Shown here piece by piece: positions 18,642 through 54,222 of a stretch of DNA of 64,000 bases (position 1 is its first letter; the number at the start of each line of letters is the position of its first letter). Source of the DNA: Spiroplasma chinense (lineage in GTDB: Bacteria; Bacillota_I; Bacilli_A; Mycoplasmatales; Mycoplasmataceae); assembly GCF_008086545.1 (NCBI RefSeq), contig NZ_CP043026.1:1116001-1180000 (forward strand), given 5' to 3'. Under the pieces are notes generated by a model. That model did not search any database, was not told the origin of the DNA, and worked only from the letters and a program-made list of their open reading frames with translations. Position numbers and translations under genes: made by a program.

Positions 18642-21167
18642 CTATTTTTTTCTTCTTTTTATAAAAATAAATCCAAGTATACTAGAGCATAAAACTAAAG
18701 GCGCTGTAATTGCAGCTATCAATCATGTTTTAGTTGCTTTAGTTTTTTGTGTTTCTACACTACCTTCATTATCTTCGTTATTATTTGAATTTCCTCCATT
18801 TTCATTTTCGTTTCCACCGTTTTCGTTTCCACCGTTTTCGTTTCCACCGTTTTCATTGTCTCCGTTTCCGTTGTCTTCGTCGTCACCATTTTTGTAGGTC
18901 TTAATATATTCATTTCCAAAGACATCTAAATAATCAATAGTTTGACCAGGTTTTAAATGTATAAATACTTTATTTTCAAGTACTTTGTAATTGTATTGAG
19001 AAATGTCGCCAACCACACTATAACTTCTTAAATCTAGTTCTATACTTGGATCATCTATTTCTTCTTTTGTTCTATTTATATCTTCTTTTACAAGAATTTT
19101 AATGTCTTTGTTAAAGTTAGAGCCATATTTAACATTTAATTTAAACTCACCAACTACCTTAGTGTTTAACATTATTCTTCCTGCATAATAAACTGGTCTT
19201 ATATCTTCACCATATATTTGTAATTTTTCTTCATTTATGGCATCATGATTTCCTACATTAATTTCAGAATTGTCTCCTTTTTTAAATATATAAAATTGAT
19301 TAATTATTTCTGGTGCTTCTTTGGTTTCAACAACATCTATTTGTACATCTTGAGCTTGAGAAGTAATAGTTGAATAAATTTTAAATTGAAAAGTTCCTAG
19401 ATTTTTTCCTTTAACTTTTAAAACATCACCTATTAATTGAATATCTAAATTTCTTTGATCATTTACAATTATGATTTCATCTAATGGGTCAATATGATCA
19501 AATTTATATTCATAATCCATTCCTTTGTCTTGGGTTATTAAGTTTTGATCAAATTCAAAAGGCGTTACAGATGAGTTATTTATTGTGATTATATTTTTTT
19601 GTTTTGCATTTATTGCATTAAAAGTTACTTGTGCTATTCCTCACCCTTTCATTTCAATTCAATATCTTCCATCTCCAAAATCAATAACTTCTAGATTTGA
19701 AGTGTTTTCTATTTCTAAACCAACAAAGTCTTCATAATTTTTAATATAAAATATTTCACCTTGTCCATGTTCTAAAGAAATATCATCTAAAGTTATATCC
19801 AAATCAAAATATTTGTAATCTAAAGTTTCATCAAATTCAGATTCTAATATTGTACATTCTCCCGGTTTGTTAACAGCATCCTTTATGTATTCAAAAGTCA
19901 CATCTTCTAAAGTCATATTGTCGTTTGGACTTACGCTATGTAAAGGATCAATACCTATATTAATTTTAAAATCTTCTCCAGTAATTGATGTGGCAGTTAC
20001 TTCAAAATACGCCATATATACCCCTGCATTGTATGTATCTAAAGCTTCAAGGATTTGTTTTGCATTTCATTCCACAACTATTGAGTTTTTTCTAATAGGA
20101 AAAACTTTGTCCAGATTTTCACTTAAAAATTCCATTACTCCTTCGATATTTTTTTTCTGACCAAAGTAACGAAATTGTGGTGGGTACGGGTTGGTAATAT
20201 CTCAAACTACTTTTGCCTTGTAGTATGCATAGTTGCTGGCTCCAAGATATACCTCAAAAAACATCATCGTTTCGTTATTTGCTTTTTCTGGGCCTTGTTC
20301 TCTTAGAAAGGCATTAATCACATCTGTTTTTAGTCCTTCAAATTCTGGTAGGTCATGCATCAAAGTTTCGGCAACACCTTTATAATTTATCAATGTACTT
20401 TGGTCATAATCAAATACTTGAGTGCCTAAAAAATAATAATCTTTTTCGTCAAAGTTTTTTTGTTGAGTCTTAAATGATGATCTAGATTTGGTTAAATTTA
20501 AACCACCACTAAGTGTAAAATTTTGAACTCATTCACTTCTACCAATATATCCTTGATCTCTAAAACCTTCTTCAATGGCATAGGATTTTATCCTTAAACC
20601 TCTATTTTCGCCAGTTTCTCTAGTAATTTCTAAAGTAACTGAGTTTTTAATAACCCCATTTACTCAAGGACTTTCAAAAGTATACGTGTGTGATACTTTT
20701 TTATAAACCTCTTTTTCTTCAAGTGTTAATGAAAAATTAGATTCTTCTAAAACTACATTGTGATTATTTGTTATTCGTGAGTCATTGAAATTTGCTCTGT
20801 TCATTGCAAACTCAAAATCCATCTCTATTTTTGAATAATCAAAATATTCTTGTTGATCATTAAAACCAAATTGTTTTGGTGAGATCAAAATCTCATCTTC
20901 CATAGTAAAGGCATAATGCTCTTTTGTATTAACCAATAATTTCTTGAAATATTGTTCACATGGTAGTTTTATATTTACTCCCGGTTCTCAATCAATGCTA
21001 TATCTATAGACTTCTCCATTTTCTTCTACGCTTTTTTCATTTGTTTTGTAAGTGTTTGCTAAGTTAAGTTTTGAGTTAGTAACCATTTGATTGATTGATG
21101 TCGAAGCTGTAGGTATAATTCCTGCAAAACTTGAAGTTGCTAATAATAATTTCATAAGTTTTTTCAT
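18642..21167 (-). CDS. Large exported surface protein with low-complexity stalk and C-terminal membrane anchor
   Basis: The 841-residue protein starts with a signal peptide (MKKLMKLLLATSSFAGII) that has no lipobox Cys. About 700 residues of acidic, beta-rich sequence of unknown family follow, then a stalk of Asn/Gly/Glu/Asp (residues 760-802, with repeated GGNEN units). One transmembrane helix (815-836) and a basic tail RRKK end the protein. It resembles a wall-less version of a cell-wall-anchored adhesin: outside, single anchor, cytoplasmic stop-transfer. It interrupts the otherwise conserved rlmN-rsmB neighbourhood. Some residues in the 550-750 range look like bacterial Ig-type or cadherin-like strands, but I cannot name a domain. 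Adhesion is inference. Confidence 0.7.
18811..18855. repeat. 15-bp coding tandem repeat in surface protein stalk
   Basis: Two perfect copies and one near-perfect copy of TTTCCACCGTTTTCG lie in tandem, with further degenerate units on both sides. Each unit encodes five residues (ENGGN), so slipped-strand changes would keep the frame and alter only stalk length. Confidence 0.8.
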
Positions 21168-24049: not shown

Positions 24050-24658
24050 ATGAAATTTGATATTGAAAAAGACTTATTACAAGGTGAAATTCCAACAAAT
24101 AAATGACTTTGAAAAGATACTCAACCAGAAGTTATTAGAAATAAAAGCGTTGATGTTGATTTACCTTTAAGTTCAGAAAATGAACTTGTTATGAAAAAAT
24201 TAATTGATTTTGTACGTTATTCACAAGACCCAACTTTAAATGTTGCTGGAACACCAGATCACTTAAGACCTGCAGTTGGTCTTGCAGCACCTCAAATCGG
24301 AAGTAACACAAACATGTTCTTTGCAAGATTTGAGTGAGACGAAGAAACTGGAGATATTGAAGAGTTTGCAATGGTGAATGCTAAAATTTATGCAAGAAGT
24401 GAACAAATTACTATATTGAGTGGTGGCGAAGGTTGCTTAAGTGTTGATAAAGATCGACACGGAAATGTTCCAAGAAGCTACAAAATACAAGTTAAAGGTT
24501 ACGAATACTTAACTGGTCAAGAGTTAGATTTAACTTTAAGAGGTTATCAAGCAATAGTTTTCCAACACGAATTAGAACATAATGAGGGAAAACTTTATTA
24601 CGACAGAATTAATGAAAAAGACCCTCATTTTAAAGATGAAAACTGAATTATCACATAA
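24050..24658 (+). CDS. def: Peptide deformylase
   Basis: The 202-residue protein has all three deformylase motifs: VGLAAPQIG, EGCLSVD with the metal-ligand Cys, and QHELEHNEG with the HExxH metal site. It removes the formyl group from nascent N-termini. The length and the insertion before motif 1 fit the Gram-positive type 2 enzymes. GAGG precedes the ATG by about 9 bases. In Bacillus, def lies between priA and fmt near gmk; here fmt is not adjacent. Confidence 0.95.
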
Positions 24659-24693: not shown

Positions 24694-25185
24694 TTAAGAT
24701 TGTGGAATATCAATTTTTAAACTGAAAACATTTTTAAATGTAATTGTCCCTTTTCCTTTTTCACTTATTTTTGTTGTAGTTTTAACAACATACAATTTGA
24801 ATGAAGTAGCATCTTTTTTACCAGCTACAGACATACCATAAACTGTCATATCAAGAATTGATGTAACCTCGTTTTTTAAGTCTTTTGTTTCATTAAACAT
24901 GCTGTATAAAGTTTCCATATTAGCAATTGTTGTAATTTCAGTTCCTGTTACTTTTCCTTTTATTTTAATATCTGAATTGTTTGATTTATATTCATCATCT
25001 TTAAAATCAGCGATAAGTTTTCCCTCAGCAATGTTTTCTTTTAAAACATCTGATGCATTAATTAATTTAGCAGCATCCATTCCTTCTGCAAAAGTTAATG
25101 ATTTCACGTTTTCACATGAAACTACTGTAGCACTAGTAGTTGCTACAAGCCCTGTTGAGGCTAATAATGTTAATATTTTTTTCAT
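24694..25185 (-). CDS. Lipoprotein, paralogue of the 50-54 kb array
   Basis: The 163-residue protein has a lipoprotein signal peptide (MKKILTLLASTGLVATTSA) and lipobox VVSC with Cys24. The mature part follows the plan of the family at 50-54 kb: a GKVTG..I strand, FNETKDLKNE, then GKKDATSFKLYVVK and a C-terminal IDIPQS. It lacks the acidic calcium-loop-like motif found in four of the others. Function is unknown; it is anchored to the outer face of the membrane. Its promoter carries a 16-T spacer (see the next feature), suggesting variable expression. Confidence 0.85.
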   Translation of the reverse strand: MKKILTLLASTGLVATTSATVVSCENVKSLTFAEGMDAAKLINASDVLKENIAEGKLIADFKDDEYKSNNSDIKIKGKVTGTEITTIANMETLYSMFNETKDLKNEVTSILDMTVYGMSVAGKKDATSFKLYVVKTTTKISEKGKGTITFKNVFSLKIDIPQS

Positions 25186-25223
25186 ATTTTTTAATTACCT
25201 TTCTGTGTATCACACTTATAAAT

Positions 25224-25250
25224 TGTATAAAAAAAAAAAAAAAATTACAA
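25224..25250 (-). promoter_or_regulatory. Lipoprotein promoter with T16 spacer
   Basis: On the minus strand, TTGTAA (25250-25245) is followed by sixteen T (25244-25229) and then ATACAA. Taking the last T into the -10 gives TATACA with a 15-bp spacer. The homopolymer is therefore the promoter spacer, the arrangement known from phase-variable vlp genes of Mycoplasma hyorhinis. A second TATAAG lies nine bases on. Confidence 0.6.
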
Positions 25251-25425
25251 GTTTTTTACTAAAATATGAATTTTATTGTTTAGTTTTGTTAAAATATTAA
25301 TAACGAAAATTCTTATTTAACTTTTTTGGACAAAATAATTAATAAAATTAAATATTATAGTTGCAGCCTTTTAATGCGACATTTACGTATGAATTTTCAA
25401 TAAGAAAAACACAGGAGATAAAAAA

Positions 25426-27213
25426 ATGGAAAAGAAAGATAACAAAGTAGCAAGTATTGTAGCCGATCTTGAAGCTAAAATTGAGATCAAAAAGGTTGGT
25501 ACGAATGCCAATCCAGAAAGAAAAAAATTAAATCCAGCTCCAGAACCAACTAAAGTTTTTGCTTTAGGTGGTTTAGAAGAAGTTGGTAAAAATACTTATT
25601 GTGTAGAATATGATGATGAATTAATTATGATTGATGCTGGAGTTAAATTTCCAGATGCAACACAACTTGGAGTAAGTGCAGTTATACCTGACTTTACATA
25701 CTTAGTTGAAAATAATAAAAAAGTAAAAGGATTGTTTATTACTCATGGTCACGAAGACCATATTGGAGGAATACCTTATCTTTTACAACAAGTTGATGTA
25801 CCTGTAATTTACGCACCAGAATTAGCAGCTGCTTTAATTCGCGATAGATTAAAAGAGTACAAATTACAAAACAAAACTGTAGTTAAAGAATATGTTGAAA
25901 GTGATATTTATCAAACTAAACACTTCACAATTCAATTTGCAGCAGTAAACCACTCAATTCCAGATGCTTTTGGAATTCACGTTTCTACACCAAATGGTGC
26001 AATCTTTTCAACAGGAGATTATAAATTTGACTGAACTCCACTTGGACATGATGCAAACATACAACGATTAGCACACTGAGGAAATGAAGGGATCGAACTT
26101 TTAATGGCAGATTCAACAAATGCTGAAGTCGAAGGCTATACACTGGGTGAAAGAAAAGTCATCCAAAATATAGATACGCACTTTTTGAAAGCAAAAGGAA
26201 GAATAATAATAGCTTCTTTTGCTTCAAACGTGCACAGAATTCAGCACATTATAGAATTAGCAAACAAATATGGTAGAAGAATTTTGGTTATTGGACGCAG
26301 TTTAGAACGTATTATTAAAATAATTCGTCAAATGGGTCACTTAAACATTAACGACAAAATGTTTATCAAACAAAATGAAGTAGATAATTTCCCAAAAAAT
26401 CAAATTATGATTTTATGTACAGGAAGTCAAGGTGAACCAATGGCAGCTCTTTCAAGAATTGCTAGAAGTGAACACCCTACTATTAAATTAATTCCAGGAG
26501 ATACAGTAATTTTATCTTCTTCACCAATTCCAGGTAACAGAGCTGATGTTGAAAATATTGTAAATAAACTTACAAAAATCGGAGCTATTGTTATTGAAAA
26601 CAATGGGGAACAAAAAATCCATACTTCAGGACATGCCAGTCAAGAAGAACAAAAATTACTATTCACTTTATTAAAACCAAAAAACTTTATGCCTATGCAC
26701 GGAGAATATCGAATGCTTAAGACTCACGGTGACACTGCTGTGAAAGTTAACGTTAAACCACAAAACGTATTTGTGGTTGCTAACGGTGATCAAATCTTAT
26801 TACATAATGGAGTTTCAGAACTTGGAAAAAGAATTCCAGCTGATGCTGTATTTATCGATGGAAAAGATATGACAGGAAAAGCAAGCAATGTTATTCGTGA
26901 AAGAAATATTTTAAGCCGTGATGGACTTATGGCTGTAATTATTTCAATCGATTCACAAGCTAACAAATTGAGTGCACCTCCAAGAATCGTTTCTAGAGGA
27001 AGCTTTTATGTTAGAGATAGCGGTAACGTTATTGCAGAATCTATAAACATAGTAACAAACGCAGTATTAGAAGTATTAAATTCACCAAAACCTACTTTTG
27101 GTGCTATCAAATCAGCGGTTAAGGAAACCCTTTCTCCATTCATCTTTAGATTTAAGAGAAGAAATCCTTTAATAATCCCTGTAATACTAAACAAAAAAAT
27201 CGAGGGAAAATAA
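25426..27213 (+). CDS. rnjA: Ribonuclease J
   Basis: The 595-residue metallo-beta-lactamase/beta-CASP RNase shows ITHGHEDHIGG (His107, His109, Asp111, His112), the FALGGLEEVGKN N-terminal strand, FSTGDYKFDWTP, and beta-CASP segments MADSTNAEVEGYT and IPGNRADVEN. It also shows the HTSGHAS and MPMHGEYRM motifs and a C-terminal domain. It acts as 5'-3' exonuclease and endonuclease in mRNA decay and rRNA processing. An N-terminal extension of about 40 charged residues precedes the core. AGGAG lies ten bases before the ATG. Only four bases separate it from the permease gene, so they form an operon. Confidence 0.93.
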
Positions 27214-50081: not shown

Positions 50082-50594
50082 TTATTGTGCTATTTTAATA
50101 GTTTTTTTATTAATTGAAGTATAAGTAAATGTTACTGCTTTTTTCTCTTCAGTATATTTTTTTTCAAATTTACCTAAAAATAACTCAAAGCTAGTAGCGT
50201 CCTTGTCACCTTTAAGACTAAAGTAATATTCAGTTACAGTTAATTTATCTGTAGATTCTGAAGCTTTAAGATCTTTTGATTGTTTAAATAAAGCAAAAAG
50301 TGCTTTATTTTTTTCTAAACTTGAATCCAAACCTATGTAAGCAACATCTTTTCCATCCATTTTACCTTTATTTGTAATTGTAGGTTCCCCTTTAATCTCT
50401 GTTGGTAATGTTAGGTCTTTCATATCTGCTTTAAGTTTTTTTTCTGCTATATAGTCACTAAGATTTGAAACTACATCTGCATCTTTTTTTTCTGCCTCAA
50501 ATGACAACGAAGCTACATTCCCGCATGCTACTACTGTAGCACTAGTTGTTGCAACCACACTTGTAGCTGCAAATATACTTAATAATTTTTTCAT
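50082..50594 (-). CDS. Array lipoprotein 1
   Basis: The 170-residue lipoprotein has signal MKKLLSIFAATSVVATTSA and lipobox VVACG. The mature plan is shared by the whole array: an acidic N-terminal helix, a GKMDGKDVAYIG strand, FALFKQSKDLKAS, YYFSLKGDKDATSFELFLGK and a terminal INKKTIKIAQ. No calcium-loop-like motif is present. It is closest to the 50998-51531 protein, with which it shares both the tail half (ATSFELFLGK) and the promoter region. Anchored outside the membrane; function unknown. Confidence 0.85.
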   Translation of the reverse strand: MKKLLSIFAATSVVATTSATVVACGNVASLSFEAEKKDADVVSNLSDYIAEKKLKADMKDLTLPTEIKGEPTITNKGKMDGKDVAYIGLDSSLEKNKALFALFKQSKDLKASESTDKLTVTEYYFSLKGDKDATSFELFLGKFEKKYTEEKKAVTFTYTSINKKTIKIAQ

Positions 50595-50635
50595 ACCATT
50601 CTATCCCTTTCTTCTTACTCTTGTAAGATAAAATG

Positions 50636-50663
50636 ATTATTCCAAATTAAAAGAAAATTGCAA
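50636..50663 (-). promoter_or_regulatory. Promoter of array lipoprotein 1
   Basis: On the minus strand, TTGCAA is followed by the 16-bp spacer TTTTCTTTTAATTTGG and AATAAT. The same arrangement occurs before the 50998 and 53701 genes. Confidence 0.6.
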
Positions 50664-50676
50664 CAAAAATTCCTGA

Positions 50677-50700
50677 AAAAGTCAATAAAAATGGCAATAT
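50677..50700. repeat. 24-bp element upstream of lipoprotein promoter, copy 1
   Basis: These 24 bases are identical to 51615-51638. The core is GTCAATAAAAATGGCAATAT. It lies 14 bp beyond the -35 in both cases, the position of an activator site or UP element. Confidence 0.65.
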
Positions 50701-50773
50701 AGACAAGTTATTGAAAAAAAACAGCAATATAGAAAATCTTTTTGGTTATTTTATATATTTGAATTTAGAAATT

Positions 50774-50965
50774 TTAATTATGTACACGACCACAAGTACA
50801 TCCGTTTTGTTTTATTATTTTTTCACCATCAATTTCTTTTTCTAAACTTTCAACATTTCCTTTATCTTGTAATGAAGTTATATTTTTTTGAGCGCAAGAT
50901 TGTATAAGTGTTGCTGTAGTTGTTAAGGTACTTGATATGGCAAATAGACTAATTAGTTTTTTCAT
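50774..50965 (-). CDS. Short Cys-containing lipoprotein
   Basis: The 63-residue protein has a lipoprotein signal MKKLISLFAISSTLTTTATL and lipobox IQSCAQ, resembling its neighbour (both have CAQK and an N/TSL segment). The mature part is only about 40 residues and ends NGCTCGRVHN with a CxC pair. It starts 32 bases after the 50998 gene with no terminator between, so it is probably co-transcribed. It may be a truncated paralogue or an independent small lipoprotein. Stop is a true TAA. Confidence 0.6.
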   Translation of the reverse strand: MKKLISLFAISSTLTTTATLIQSCAQKNITSLQDKGNVESLEKEIDGEKIIKQNGCTCGRVHN

Positions 50966-50997
50966 CTCATTTTAATCCTTTCTTTTTCTGTAAATTT

Positions 50998-51531
50998 TTA
51001 TTGTGAAATATTTACTTTAAACTTATTTAAAGTTTTATAAGTTATAACTACATTCAAAAGATTACTTCCTTTAAATGAACTGCTCATTTTTCCTAAAAAT
51101 AATTCAAAACTTGTAGCTTCTTTTTTTCCTTTAGCGCTAAAAAAGTAAGTAGTACTTTCAAAAGTTTGTAAAGAAACTTCTGGTTTTAGATCTTTAGATT
51201 CTTGAAAAAATGTAAATAATTCTTCATTGATTGAAATATTATCGTTAACACCTTCGAGTTCCACTCCCAATAAAGCTATTAATTCACCTTGAATCTTTCC
51301 CTTTGTTTTGACTTGAATAGGACCTATAGTAAAGTCTCCAACCTTTGTATCATTTAAATCTCTTTCCACTTTTTTATTTTCAATTAATTCATGCAAATTT
51401 AAAAGTAAATCACTTTCACTTTTTTCTTCAACCATAGTTAAGTTTTTAATTTTTTGAGCACAAGCTATTGTTATAGAACTTGATGTTGCAACTAAGCTAG
51501 TTGCAACAAAAAGACTTAATAATTTCTTCAT
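50998..51531 (-). CDS. Array lipoprotein 2
   Basis: The 177-residue lipoprotein has signal MKKLLSLFVATSLVATSSS and lipobox TIACAQ. It shares with lipoprotein 1 the segments ELFTFFQESKDLKPE, TTYFFSAKGKKEATSFELFLGKM and a terminal TLNKFKVNISQ. No calcium-loop-like motif is present. A conserved 24-bp element and promoter lie upstream. Function is unknown. Confidence 0.85.
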   Translation of the reverse strand: MKKLLSLFVATSLVATSSSITIACAQKIKNLTMVEEKSESDLLLNLHELIENKKVERDLNDTKVGDFTIGPIQVKTKGKIQGELIALLGVELEGVNDNISINEELFTFFQESKDLKPEVSLQTFESTTYFFSAKGKKEATSFELFLGKMSSSFKGSNLLNVVITYKTLNKFKVNISQ

Positions 51532-51573
51532 AAATTTTCACATCTTTCATTCAACTTTTTTAAAGTCTATTTA

Positions 51574-51601
51574 ATTATTTCAAATGAAAAGAAAATAGCA
51601 A
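51574..51601 (-). promoter_or_regulatory. Promoter of array lipoprotein 2
   Basis: On the minus strand, TTGCTA is followed by the 16-bp spacer TTTTCTTTTCATTTGA and AATAAT, almost identical to the promoter at 50636-50663. Confidence 0.6.
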
Positions 51602-51614
51602 TGCAAATTTGGTT

Positions 51615-51638
51615 AAAAGTCAATAAAAATGGCAATAT
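51615..51638. repeat. 24-bp element upstream of lipoprotein promoter, copy 2
   Basis: Identical over 24 bases to 50677-50700 and at the same distance (about 14 bp) from the -35 element. Confidence 0.65.
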
Positions 51639-51669
51639 TGTTAATTTTTTTCACTATTTGGCAATAAAA

Positions 51670-51697
51670 AAAATAATTCTAGTTATAGAATTATTTT
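51670..51697 (-). terminator. Terminator of array lipoprotein 3
   Basis: A perfect 12-bp stem, AAAATAATTCTA / TAGAATTATTTT, with a GTTA loop lies 10 bases past the 51707 stop, with T on the minus strand. Confidence 0.85.
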
Positions 51698-51706
51698 GAT
51701 CATATC

Positions 51707-52204
51707 CTATTCAGCTTTTGGTTGAGGTAAGTCTAATTTTATTTTATTAAGAGTAGAGTAAGTTATTTTTCCACTTGTAGGCACAGCATCTTCATACTTT
51801 ACATCTTTACCAACAATTTTAATAACATAAATTGTAACTGTTTTATCATCTTTATTCCCTTCAGCTGTTAAAACATAGCTAGTTTCTTCATTAGAAACTA
51901 GTTCTTTAGTTTCTTTAAAGTAAGTTCCAAGTCCACCTTTTTCTTTATCCAATGAGTCTATAATTTGACCTTTTATAGATCCTTTAATAGTTACACCATC
52001 AATTTTTGGCATTTCTGGAGTTTTAAAGTCTAAATCTAATTTTCCATCAGCATTTGTATCTAAAGATGCTTCTTTTACAAAATCTTCGATTTTTTTATCA
52101 TCAGCTCATGTAAGAGTTTCTACTTTATCACCACAAGCTACTACTGTAGCACTAGTTGTTGCTACAAGTCCTGTAGCTGCAAATAAACTTAATAATTTTT
52201 TCAT
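51707..52204 (-). CDS. Array lipoprotein 3, with acidic calcium-loop-like motif
   Basis: The 165-residue lipoprotein has signal MKKLLSLFAATGLVATTSA and lipobox VVACG. Near residue 50 it carries DTNADGKLDLDF, an EF-hand/dockerin-like loop. The shared plan follows: GSIKGQIID, FKETKELVSN, YVLTAEGNKDDKTVTIYVIK and a terminal TLNKIKLDLPQPKAE. The signal-peptide-coding region and upstream DNA are identical over 103 bp to those of lipoprotein 4. Surface-anchored; ligand unknown. Confidence 0.85.
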
Positions 52205-52218
52205 ATTGTTTTCCTTTC
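52116..52218. repeat. 103-bp perfect direct repeat, copy 1
   Basis: Identical to 52728-52830 (offset 612 bp). It spans the ribosome site, the start codon, the whole signal peptide and the first mature residues of lipoprotein 3. Confidence 0.9.
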
Positions 52219-52235
52219 ATCTCGCAAATTGCAAG

Positions 52236-52264
52236 GTATTAAAATAATACAAAAAAAAAGGCAA
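52236..52264 (-). promoter_or_regulatory. Possible promoter of array lipoprotein 3, overlapping a terminator
   Basis: On the minus strand, TTGCCT is followed by a T-rich 17-bp spacer and TAATAC. The TTGCC and T run are also the 3' stem end and T tract of the terminator at 52251-52295, so the promoter reading is less certain here. Confidence 0.4.
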
Positions 52265-52295
52265 GATATTACACTCTAAAAGTGTAATTTCTTGC
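52251..52295 (-). terminator. Terminator of array lipoprotein 4
   Basis: A 14-bp stem with one mismatch (52261-52274 with 52282-52295) has a 7-base loop and is followed by nine T on the minus strand, 12 bases past the stop at 52307. Confidence 0.85.
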
Positions 52296-52306
52296 TAAAA
52301 TTAACC

Positions 52307-52816
52307 TTATTTTGTCACTGGTAAAGTGATCACTATTTTACCAATAACAGAACCTGTTACACTCCCCGATTGTTTACCATCTTGAATCTTTACATCAAAA
52401 TTTACTTTATTAACATAAACTGTTACTTTTGTAGCATCTTTCTTACCAACAACTGTTGTAGTGTAAGTGTTACCTTGGATACCTGAATCATCCTTTTTCT
52501 TATCATTTTTCAAATCCTTAGTTTCATTGAAATACGCTGTGATAAATCCTCACTCATCTACTGTTTCTCCCTCGATACTTCCAGTTGTTTTTACATCATC
52601 TATTTTATAATCTTTATCCCATTCTTCAGCTTTAGTATCTCTATCAATCTTTCCATCTCCATCTTTATCGACACTTAAAAGTTTTACTAGTTTTTTTAAG
52701 TTATCTTCTCCGTTTATAATAGTTAAGGTTTCTACTTTATCACCACAAGCTACTACTGTAGCACTAGTTGTTGCTACAAGTCCTGTAGCTGCAAATAAAC
52801 TTAATAATTTTTTCAT
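52307..52816 (-). CDS. Array lipoprotein 4, with acidic calcium-loop-like motif
   Basis: The 169-residue lipoprotein has a signal peptide identical to lipoprotein 3 and lipobox VVACG. DKDGDGKIDRDT lies near residue 52. Then come GSIEGETVDEWG, YFNETKDLKND, TTTVVGKKDATKVTVYVNKV and a terminal GKIVITLPVTK. The mature part is clearly diverged from lipoprotein 3 while the leader DNA is identical, which points to recent exchange of the 5' region. ATG 52816 is used because the upstream extension has no ribosome site. Confidence 0.85.
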
Positions 52817-52830
52817 ATTGTTTTCCTTTC
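52728..52830. repeat. 103-bp perfect direct repeat, copy 2
   Basis: Second copy of 52116-52218, covering the ribosome site and leader of lipoprotein 4. Confidence 0.9.
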
Positions 52831-52852
52831 TTATCTTGACTAAGATGTCTTG

Positions 52853-52880
52853 AATATTACAAAAAAAAAGAAAAAAGCAA
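52853..52880 (-). promoter_or_regulatory. Promoter of array lipoprotein 4 with T9 tract
   Basis: On the minus strand, TTGCTT is followed by TTTTCTTTTTTTTTGT (16 bp, containing nine T in a row) and AATATT; shifting by one gives TAATAT with a 15-bp spacer. It is the same scaffold as the other array promoters with the spacer turned into a homopolymer. Confidence 0.55.
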
Positions 52881-52888
52881 TTCAGACT

Positions 52889-52919
52889 ACAAAAAAACAA
52901 CCTTATATTAAAGATTGTT
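52889..52919 (-). terminator. Terminator of array lipoprotein 5
   Basis: The stem AACAACCTT / AAGATTGTT has one wobble pair, a 6-base loop and a T run on the minus strand, 11 bases past the stop at 52930. Confidence 0.75.
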
Positions 52920-52929
52920 TTTGTAAAAT

Positions 52930-53487
52930 TTATTCTGTTCCTGATGGAGTTTCTTCATTAGTATCTGGTTTAGATTCGGGTGTAGGTAATGTTAATTCAT
53001 ATTTACCAACTGTTTTTATTTTAATAGTTCCTGAAACATTTTCTACAGAGTCCCCGCTAACGTTATAAGTAAGACAAGAAATGTACATAACAGCCTTGCT
53101 TTCACCTTTAACTCCTATTAAAGTTGTAACATATAAAGGCCCTGTCATTGAATTTTCACCCATTTGCAAATCATCTTTAAGTTCCTTAGTTTGCATAAAG
53201 AATTCATTTGTATTTGTATTAACCGCAGTTCCTTTAAGTGTTCCAGTAACCTTTACTGAACCCATTTTAAATTGTGCAGCATATGTTTCATCTACCTCGT
53301 TATAATCTTTGTCTAATTTTCCGTCTCCATCTTCATCAATTTTTAATTTTGATACTAAAGTTTCAAGATTAAAATCATCTCCACCAACTAGAGATAAATC
53401 ATTAACTTTATCTCCACAAGCAACTACTGTAGCGCTAGTTGTAGCTACAAGTCCTGTAGCTGCAAAAATTCCTAATAATTTTTTCAT
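52930..53487 (-). CDS. Array lipoprotein 5, with acidic calcium-loop-like motif
   Basis: The 185-residue lipoprotein has signal MKKLLGIFAATGLVATTSA and lipobox VVACG. DEDGDGKLDKDY lies near residue 52. It then has GTLKGTAVN, FFMQTKELKDD, YVTTLIGVKGESKAVMYIS and a terminal TVGKYELTLPTPE, followed by an extra acidic Thr/Glu/Pro tail. It belongs to the same family as 3, 4 and 6. Confidence 0.85.
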   Translation of the reverse strand: MKKLLGIFAATGLVATTSATVVACGDKVNDLSLVGGDDFNLETLVSKLKIDEDGDGKLDKDYNEVDETYAAQFKMGSVKVTGTLKGTAVNTNTNEFFMQTKELKDDLQMGENSMTGPLYVTTLIGVKGESKAVMYISCLTYNVSGDSVENVSGTIKIKTVGKYELTLPTPESKPDTNEETPSGTE

Positions 53488-53527
53488 TGATATTTCCTTC
53501 TTTCTACACTAAAAAGTGCTTGTTTTG

Positions 53528-53556
53528 ATTATATATTTATGAAAAAATGTGTTCAA
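53528..53556 (-). promoter_or_regulatory. Promoter of array lipoprotein 5
   Basis: On the minus strand, TTGAAC, a 17-bp spacer and a perfect TATAAT form the best canonical promoter of the array. This one lacks the T-rich scaffold of its neighbours. Confidence 0.65.
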
Positions 53557-53670
53557 CATTGCTTTTAAAAGTAAAAAGTGTATATTCTGTGTTCGAACCC
53601 TTTTTATATGGGTTTTTACAAAAAATGTCATATAAAAAACCTTTTAAATTTTAATAAAATTTTATGAATT

Positions 53671-53700
53671 AAAAAGTGTGGTAAATCACCACACATTTTT
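53671..53700 (-). terminator. Terminator of array lipoprotein 6
   Basis: A perfect 7-bp GC-containing stem, GTGTGGT / ACCACAC, with a 5-base loop is flanked by A/T runs and directly abuts the stop at 53701. Confidence 0.85.
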
Positions 53701-54222
53701 TTAAACTAAACTTACTTTTAATTGATTTAAAGTTTTTAGATCAATTTCTCCTCCAGCAAGATACTCTTTTCCATCCTCTTCATCAATTTCAAAAAGTGCA
53801 TTTGTTAATACAACTTCTACTAAATAAACATCAACTGAAGTTTCGCCCTTACTACCATATACTGTTATAAGATAAAATTCTGTTTTAGTCCCTGTCAAAT
53901 CTTTGGTTTGTTTAAAGAATTGACTCACTTCTCTTTGTACAAACACTCCATCACCATCAAATCCACCAATCATTTGAATTGGTTCACCCAAAACTTTTCC
54001 TTTTACTGTAATTCCTCAACTTCCTTCAGAACTTTCTTCTGAATAACTTCTATCTAACTTTCCATCACCATCTTCATCCAGTTTAGCAGCTTTTACAAAG
54101 TCTTTATTTTGTCCTTCTTGTAATCAAGTTAAGCTTTCATATTTTGTTTCACATGACACAACTTGTGAAACACTTATTGCAGACAAACTTGTTGCTGCAA
54201 ATAATCCTAATAATTTTTTCAT
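53701..54222 (-). CDS. Array lipoprotein 6, with acidic calcium-loop-like motif
   Basis: The 173-residue lipoprotein has signal MKKLLGLFAATSLSAISVS and lipobox VVSCE, more diverged than the others. DEDGDGKLDRSY lies near residue 49. Then come GKVLGEPIQ, FFKQTKDLTGT, YLITVYGSKGETSVDVYLVE and a terminal DLKTLNQLKVSLV. It is the first gene of the array, next to the divergent gene at 54341. Function is unknown. Confidence 0.85.

Follow-up and report, generated by a model that had tools for sequence, protein, structure and literature searches.

A T16 tract in the predicted promoter spacer of a Spiroplasma chinense lipoprotein gene, a candidate slipped-strand switch

An uninterrupted run of 16 T stands on the minus strand, 43 bp 5' of the ATG of a small lipoprotein gene of Spiroplasma chinense. 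The locus raises the question of whether this run is the spacer of the promoter of the gene and whether changes in its length could switch expression. The window, i.e. the whole analysed stretch of 64,000 nt, covers positions 1116001-1180000 of the 1,370,182-base (1.37-Mb) genome (G000), and TGA was read as Trp for gene calling. The lipoprotein families encoded are indicative of Spiroplasma. Within these 64 kb the run is the sole A/T run of at least 12. The minus-strand order of the tract region is ...AAAAAACTTGTAA-TTTTTTTTTTTTTTTT-ATACAATTTATAAGTGTGATACACAGAAAGGTAATTAAAAAATATGAAAAAA; starting from TTGTAA (25250-25245), the 16 T (25244-25229) are followed by ATACAATTTATAAGTGTGATACACAGAAAGG and by the ATG at 25185 (Table 1). 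With a probability of roughly 0.7, the T16 forms the spacer in the sigma-70-type promoter of the lipoprotein gene, TTGTAA - T16 A - TACAAT (17 bp), and would work as a slipped-strand phase switch.

Table 1. Features of the T16 locus in window coordinates.
Feature	Coordinates	Strand	Basis
-35 element TTGTAA	25245..25250	-	sequence and box scoring
T16 homopolymer, 16 of 17 spacer positions, proposed slippage site	25229..25244	-	sequence, run counts
-10 element TACAAT, preferred to TATACA (25229-25224)	25222..25227	-	box scoring; promoter consensus TAWAAT in S. melliferum (PMC5138195)
Predicted transcription start, G, 6 nt past the -10	25215	-	deduced from PMC5138195 (6-nt distance, G or A initiator)
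AGAAAGG, probable ribosome-binding site	25198..25204	-	sequence
Lipoprotein of 163 aa (MKKILTLLASTGLVATTSATVVSC...) with a plasma-type lipoprotein signal and a weak match to spiralin	24694..25185	-	ORF, profile match
Divergent RNase J gene; tract 181 bp upstream	25426..27213	+	gene call, profile match
Peptide deformylase (def)	24050-24658	+	gene call, profile match

Promoter elements around the tract

The homopolymer is placed between the -35 and -10 elements by consensus (TTGTAA-T16A-TACAAT), the start site being predicted. Scoring of both boxes gave 9/12 for TTGTAA - 17 bp - TACAAT (25227-25222) and 8 for TTGTAA - 15 bp - TATACA. TACAAT agrees with TATAAT at 5/6 positions and TATACA at 4/6, while the -35 element TTGTAA matches its consensus at 4/6 only. 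The TTGTAA/TACAAT pair is among the top-score (9) pairs in 25180-25300 and is the sole one with both a TTG and a 17-bp spacer; the remaining pairs of this score are without TTG, located farther upstream or separated by a non-optimal spacer. The promoters of S. melliferum are characterized by a mapped distance of 6 nt from the -10 to the start, a purine initiator, a pronounced -35 box and the TAWAAT consensus (PMC5138195). With TACAAT as the -10, the spacer measures 17 bp and a purine is available as the start at a distance of 6 nt, as in the S. melliferum layout; the sequenced T16 length is thus probably the ON state.

The sequence-only reading had placed the T16 exactly between TTGTAA and TATACA, with a spacer below the optimum, the gene perhaps low or off, and one or two added bases as an improvement. 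The run of exactly 16 T, its coordinates and the lipoprotein ORF downstream of it were confirmed. The TTGTAA-TATACA spacer is, however, 15 and not 16 bp, because the 16th T doubles as the first T of TATACA, and the prediction of a low or off state is not upheld: TACAAT is the better -10, its spacer is 17 bp, and the present length is predicted to be the best already.

The promoter might also lie elsewhere, e.g. at TATAAG (25220-25215), the T-tract then being an upstream UP-like or bendable element. A T/A tract located upstream can have a stimulating effect on a promoter, and TATAAG is indeed present nine bases downstream. Within 15-19 bp of TATAAG, however, there is no -35 candidate above the score cut, for which reason it was rejected as the main -10, and boxes abut both ends of many other tracts in the class, leaving this reading very improbable. 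A promoter of the RNase J gene on the A16 strand was likewise rejected (score 6, no good promoter in that direction). The T-run could finally be regarded as the U-tract of an intrinsic terminator, given that a hairpin precedes 9/20 tracts of the genome. The T16, in contrast, has no preceding hairpin (stem 0, no stem of at least 5 within 2 nt of the tract), and nothing reads into it on the minus strand because its upstream neighbour, the RNase J gene, is divergent; the terminator was thus rejected and retains next to no probability.

Length classes of A/T runs

The whole-genome histogram of A/T runs in S. chinense falls from 626 runs of length 8 to 22 of length 9 and two of length 10, with none of 11-12. 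Above this gap lies a second peak of 20 tracts: two of 13, none of 14, two of 15, 12 of 16 and four of 17, with none longer. In Markov sequences of equal composition the numbers drop off smoothly, with hundreds of runs at 9-12. G015, the related genome that carries the best match to the lipoprotein, has four runs of length 9 and 54 of 15-20, the range of 10-14 being empty, and summed over 20 genomes of the genus there are 532 tracts of at least 13, of which 470 are at least 16. The long tracts are nearly all located outside genes and the runs of 7 and 8 are mostly coding; dinucleotide runs of more than five units are absent from both G000 and G015. The tracts are thus longer or commoner than chance would give and appear maintained, forming a separate 16-17 peak over an almost empty range. 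A shuffle of the window led to an expectation of about five twelve-mer matches, because shuffling takes no account of how depleted long runs actually are. The near absence of runs of 9-14, together with the distinct peak at 16, means that chance does not explain the T16, and a chance origin was therefore rejected.

The class is unevenly distributed in the genus: A/T runs of at least 13 are lacking in G010 and very rare in G014 and G016, their number reaches 83 in sister genomes, and MutS is absent from all of them. A TAAA tetranucleotide repeated nine times is found in S. chinense at G000:C1:668495-668530.

The mean tract length is 16.40 in promoters vs 16.36 behind hairpins, and 9/20 of the S. 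chinense tracts are terminator-like in that they follow a hairpin. The equal length in both settings implies that length alone is no evidence of promoter function, and suggests that about 16-17 is a mutational attractor, or slippage equilibrium, instead of the product of per-promoter tuning. An equilibrium near 16-17 would also explain the empty range of 10-14. That promoter-like and terminator-like tracts share their modal length also favours an explanation in which the T16 is a real promoter spacer without the function of a switch. Its length would then drift round the attractor of about 16-17, and the effect on expression would be small or have no selected role. Opposed to this are the position of the tract exactly between the boxes and the near absence of runs longer than 9 elsewhere; on all the evidence, including that given below, we consider it unlikely, although with an appreciable share of the probability.

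Promoter boxes and genes beside the tracts

Tracts facing a gene start within 140 bp were compared with intergenic runs of 5-8 that face genes in the same way and were extended computationally to equal sizes. High box scores were obtained for 10/20 tracts vs 358/1929 controls in S. chinense (p=0.0016) and for 28/44 vs 253/1496 in G015 (p=1.6e-11). The 5' edge of the tract is TTGN0-3 in 8/20 cases vs 13% in S. chinense, and in 29/54 vs 11% in G015. The pattern TTGC-Tn-TAxxxT is present in 13/20 genus genomes, and the reversed control pattern gave zero matches. A lipoprotein follows the tract in 7/20 cases vs 128/1258 in S. chinense (p=0.0024) and in 10/41 vs 60/1092 in G015 (p=3.5e-5), all these counts being approximate because genes and lipoproteins were called by our own ORF and signal-peptide rules. 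This enrichment of lipoproteins and promoters speaks against a spacer that is not a switch.

The product encoded downstream of the T16 is itself a predicted surface lipoprotein: the NF038029 lipoprotein signal scores above its curated cut-off, with a weak spiralin match besides. It has 11 matching places in its own genome, itself included; an orthologue between def and the RNase J gene was not found in relatives. A cluster of six paralogues is located in the window at 50097-54222 (minus strand), several of them preceded by TTGC and T-rich spacers broken by other bases, e.g. TTGCTTTTTTCTTTTTTTTTGTAATAT. These interrupted promoters could be locked versions of the T-tract type. They also count in favour of a non-switching spacer, since T-richness itself may then be the conserved feature.

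Two S. chinense tracts read as poly-A on the coding strand, arranged as TTGCAA or TTGTAA - 18 bp - TAGAAT before C5-methylase genes. At L155:10940-14679 (G000:C1:930940-934679), which lies outside the window, such an A16 and A17 stand 26-29 bp in front of two C5-cytosine methylase genes, with a Z1-domain helicase gene upstream, which makes this a candidate phase-variable restriction-modification locus. At L047:1499-1513 (G000:C1:1009821-1009835, also outside the window) a T15 lies in the 17 bp between TATACA and TAAAAT, and gene calling yielded nothing downstream; the stretch of about 130 nt that follows ends in a terminator-like hairpin, gave no match in the Rfam search, and is a possible switchable small RNA. 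At L032:1502-1518 (G000:C1:124035-124051) a T17 stands behind a hairpin and doubles as the spacer in TTGCTT-16-TAAAAT; a PTS permease-like gene follows 42 bp further on, and terminator and promoter may overlap here.

Length change and comparison with known switches

Two sister species, G003 and G009, carry T16 vs T17 in two orthologous lipoprotein promoters whose -10 sides are nearly identical. The identity of these genomes is 96% around the RNase J gene and 92% and 97% at the two lipoprotein loci, and runs of 5-12 in three aligned loci have the same length in 98/105 cases. Within G015, two lipoprotein promoters that closely resemble each other (697378 and 737555) likewise carry T16 and T17. 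Differences of one T are suggestive and not proof, because assemblies can miscount homopolymers by one. MutS was not found in any of the 20 genus genomes, and mutS and mutL have been described as universally lacking in Spiroplasma (PMC8208695). The earlier assignment of the tract to the spacer of the lipoprotein promoter is hence strengthened by a class that is non-random and promoter-associated, by the absence of mismatch repair and by orthologous tracts of sister species differing by one T.

In mycoplasmas, spacer indels switch vlp, maa2 and vmm, as summarized in PMC2268961 and PMC10502178. The vlp genes of M. hyorhinis have a poly-A tract in the promoter, in which single-base indels switch transcription (Citti and Wise 1995, as cited in PMC2268961 and PMC10502178). 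As far as these accounts go, the S. chinense locus resembles vlp in that a homopolymer occupies the spacer of a surface lipoprotein promoter, the bacterium is wall-less and mismatch repair is absent; switching by single-base indels is proposed here. It differs in the genus, in having T on the coding strand, and in that its tracts also precede transporter and methylase genes; switching is here proposed from the sequence. In M. mycoides SC, vmm carries a dinucleotide repeat in the promoter spacer (Persson et al. 2002, as cited in PMC10502178 and PMC2628566). Going by these citations, the spacer-length mechanism, the small lipoprotein (vmm about 16 kDa) and the mollicute host are common to both, variation being proposed in our case, whereas the repeat is dinucleotide in vmm and mononucleotide in S. 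chinense.

The warning case is vpma of M. agalactiae, where a T-tract lies directly 5' of the -10 of a lipoprotein promoter, as it does here, but has been shown not to cause switching, the variation being due to Xer1 inversion (PMC2268961). This precedent favours a spacer without switching function, and is the reason why the switch reading is held at 0.7. On the other side, sigma-70 promoters are generally sensitive to spacer length. The best mechanism, held with the same reasonable confidence, would be a slipped-strand length change of the sigma-70 spacer as in M. hyorhinis vlp, with the corresponding anatomy present and the length change suggestive.

In such a mechanism, replication slippage would, without MutS/MutL, gain or lose single T's in the T16, and each step would shift the distance and rotation between the -35 and -10 by one base pair, turning transcription up or down. 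T16, giving the 17-bp spacer, would probably leave the sequenced clone ON, and 15 or 17 T's should weaken the promoter. The site is among the roughly 20 tracts of this kind in S. chinense, whose common length of about 16-17 is probably set by a balance of slippage gains and losses, with the surrounding promoters having their ON state at or next to this length. Across the genus, the runs of about 16-17 bases, the T16 included, probably act as random on/off switches. The wider proposition that Spiroplasma possesses genus-wide phase switches, i.e. dozens of T/A tracts whose slippage equilibrium of 16-17 agrees with the best spacer length for sigma-70 and which lie in the promoters of lipoprotein and transporter genes and, as poly-A, of two cytosine DNA methylase genes, so that mutation bias supplies randomly tuned promoters, is in our judgement evenly poised.

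Promoter-spacer slippage phase variation is already established in vertebrate mycoplasmas, and no report of such switches in Spiroplasma was found in the open-licence literature. The members of this genus are associates of insects and plants, hosts without adaptive immunity. If true, the proposition yields a ready list of switchable surface genes for each species and raises the question of the purpose of switching in an arthropod host. The sharp common length of 16-17 above an empty range would also make slippage mechanics without mismatch repair directly measurable.

A further product observed in the window, encoded at 18642-21167 (minus strand) and without a family match in the profile search, is a secreted protein of 841 aa, apparently C-terminally anchored, with GGNEN repeats in front of the membrane anchor.
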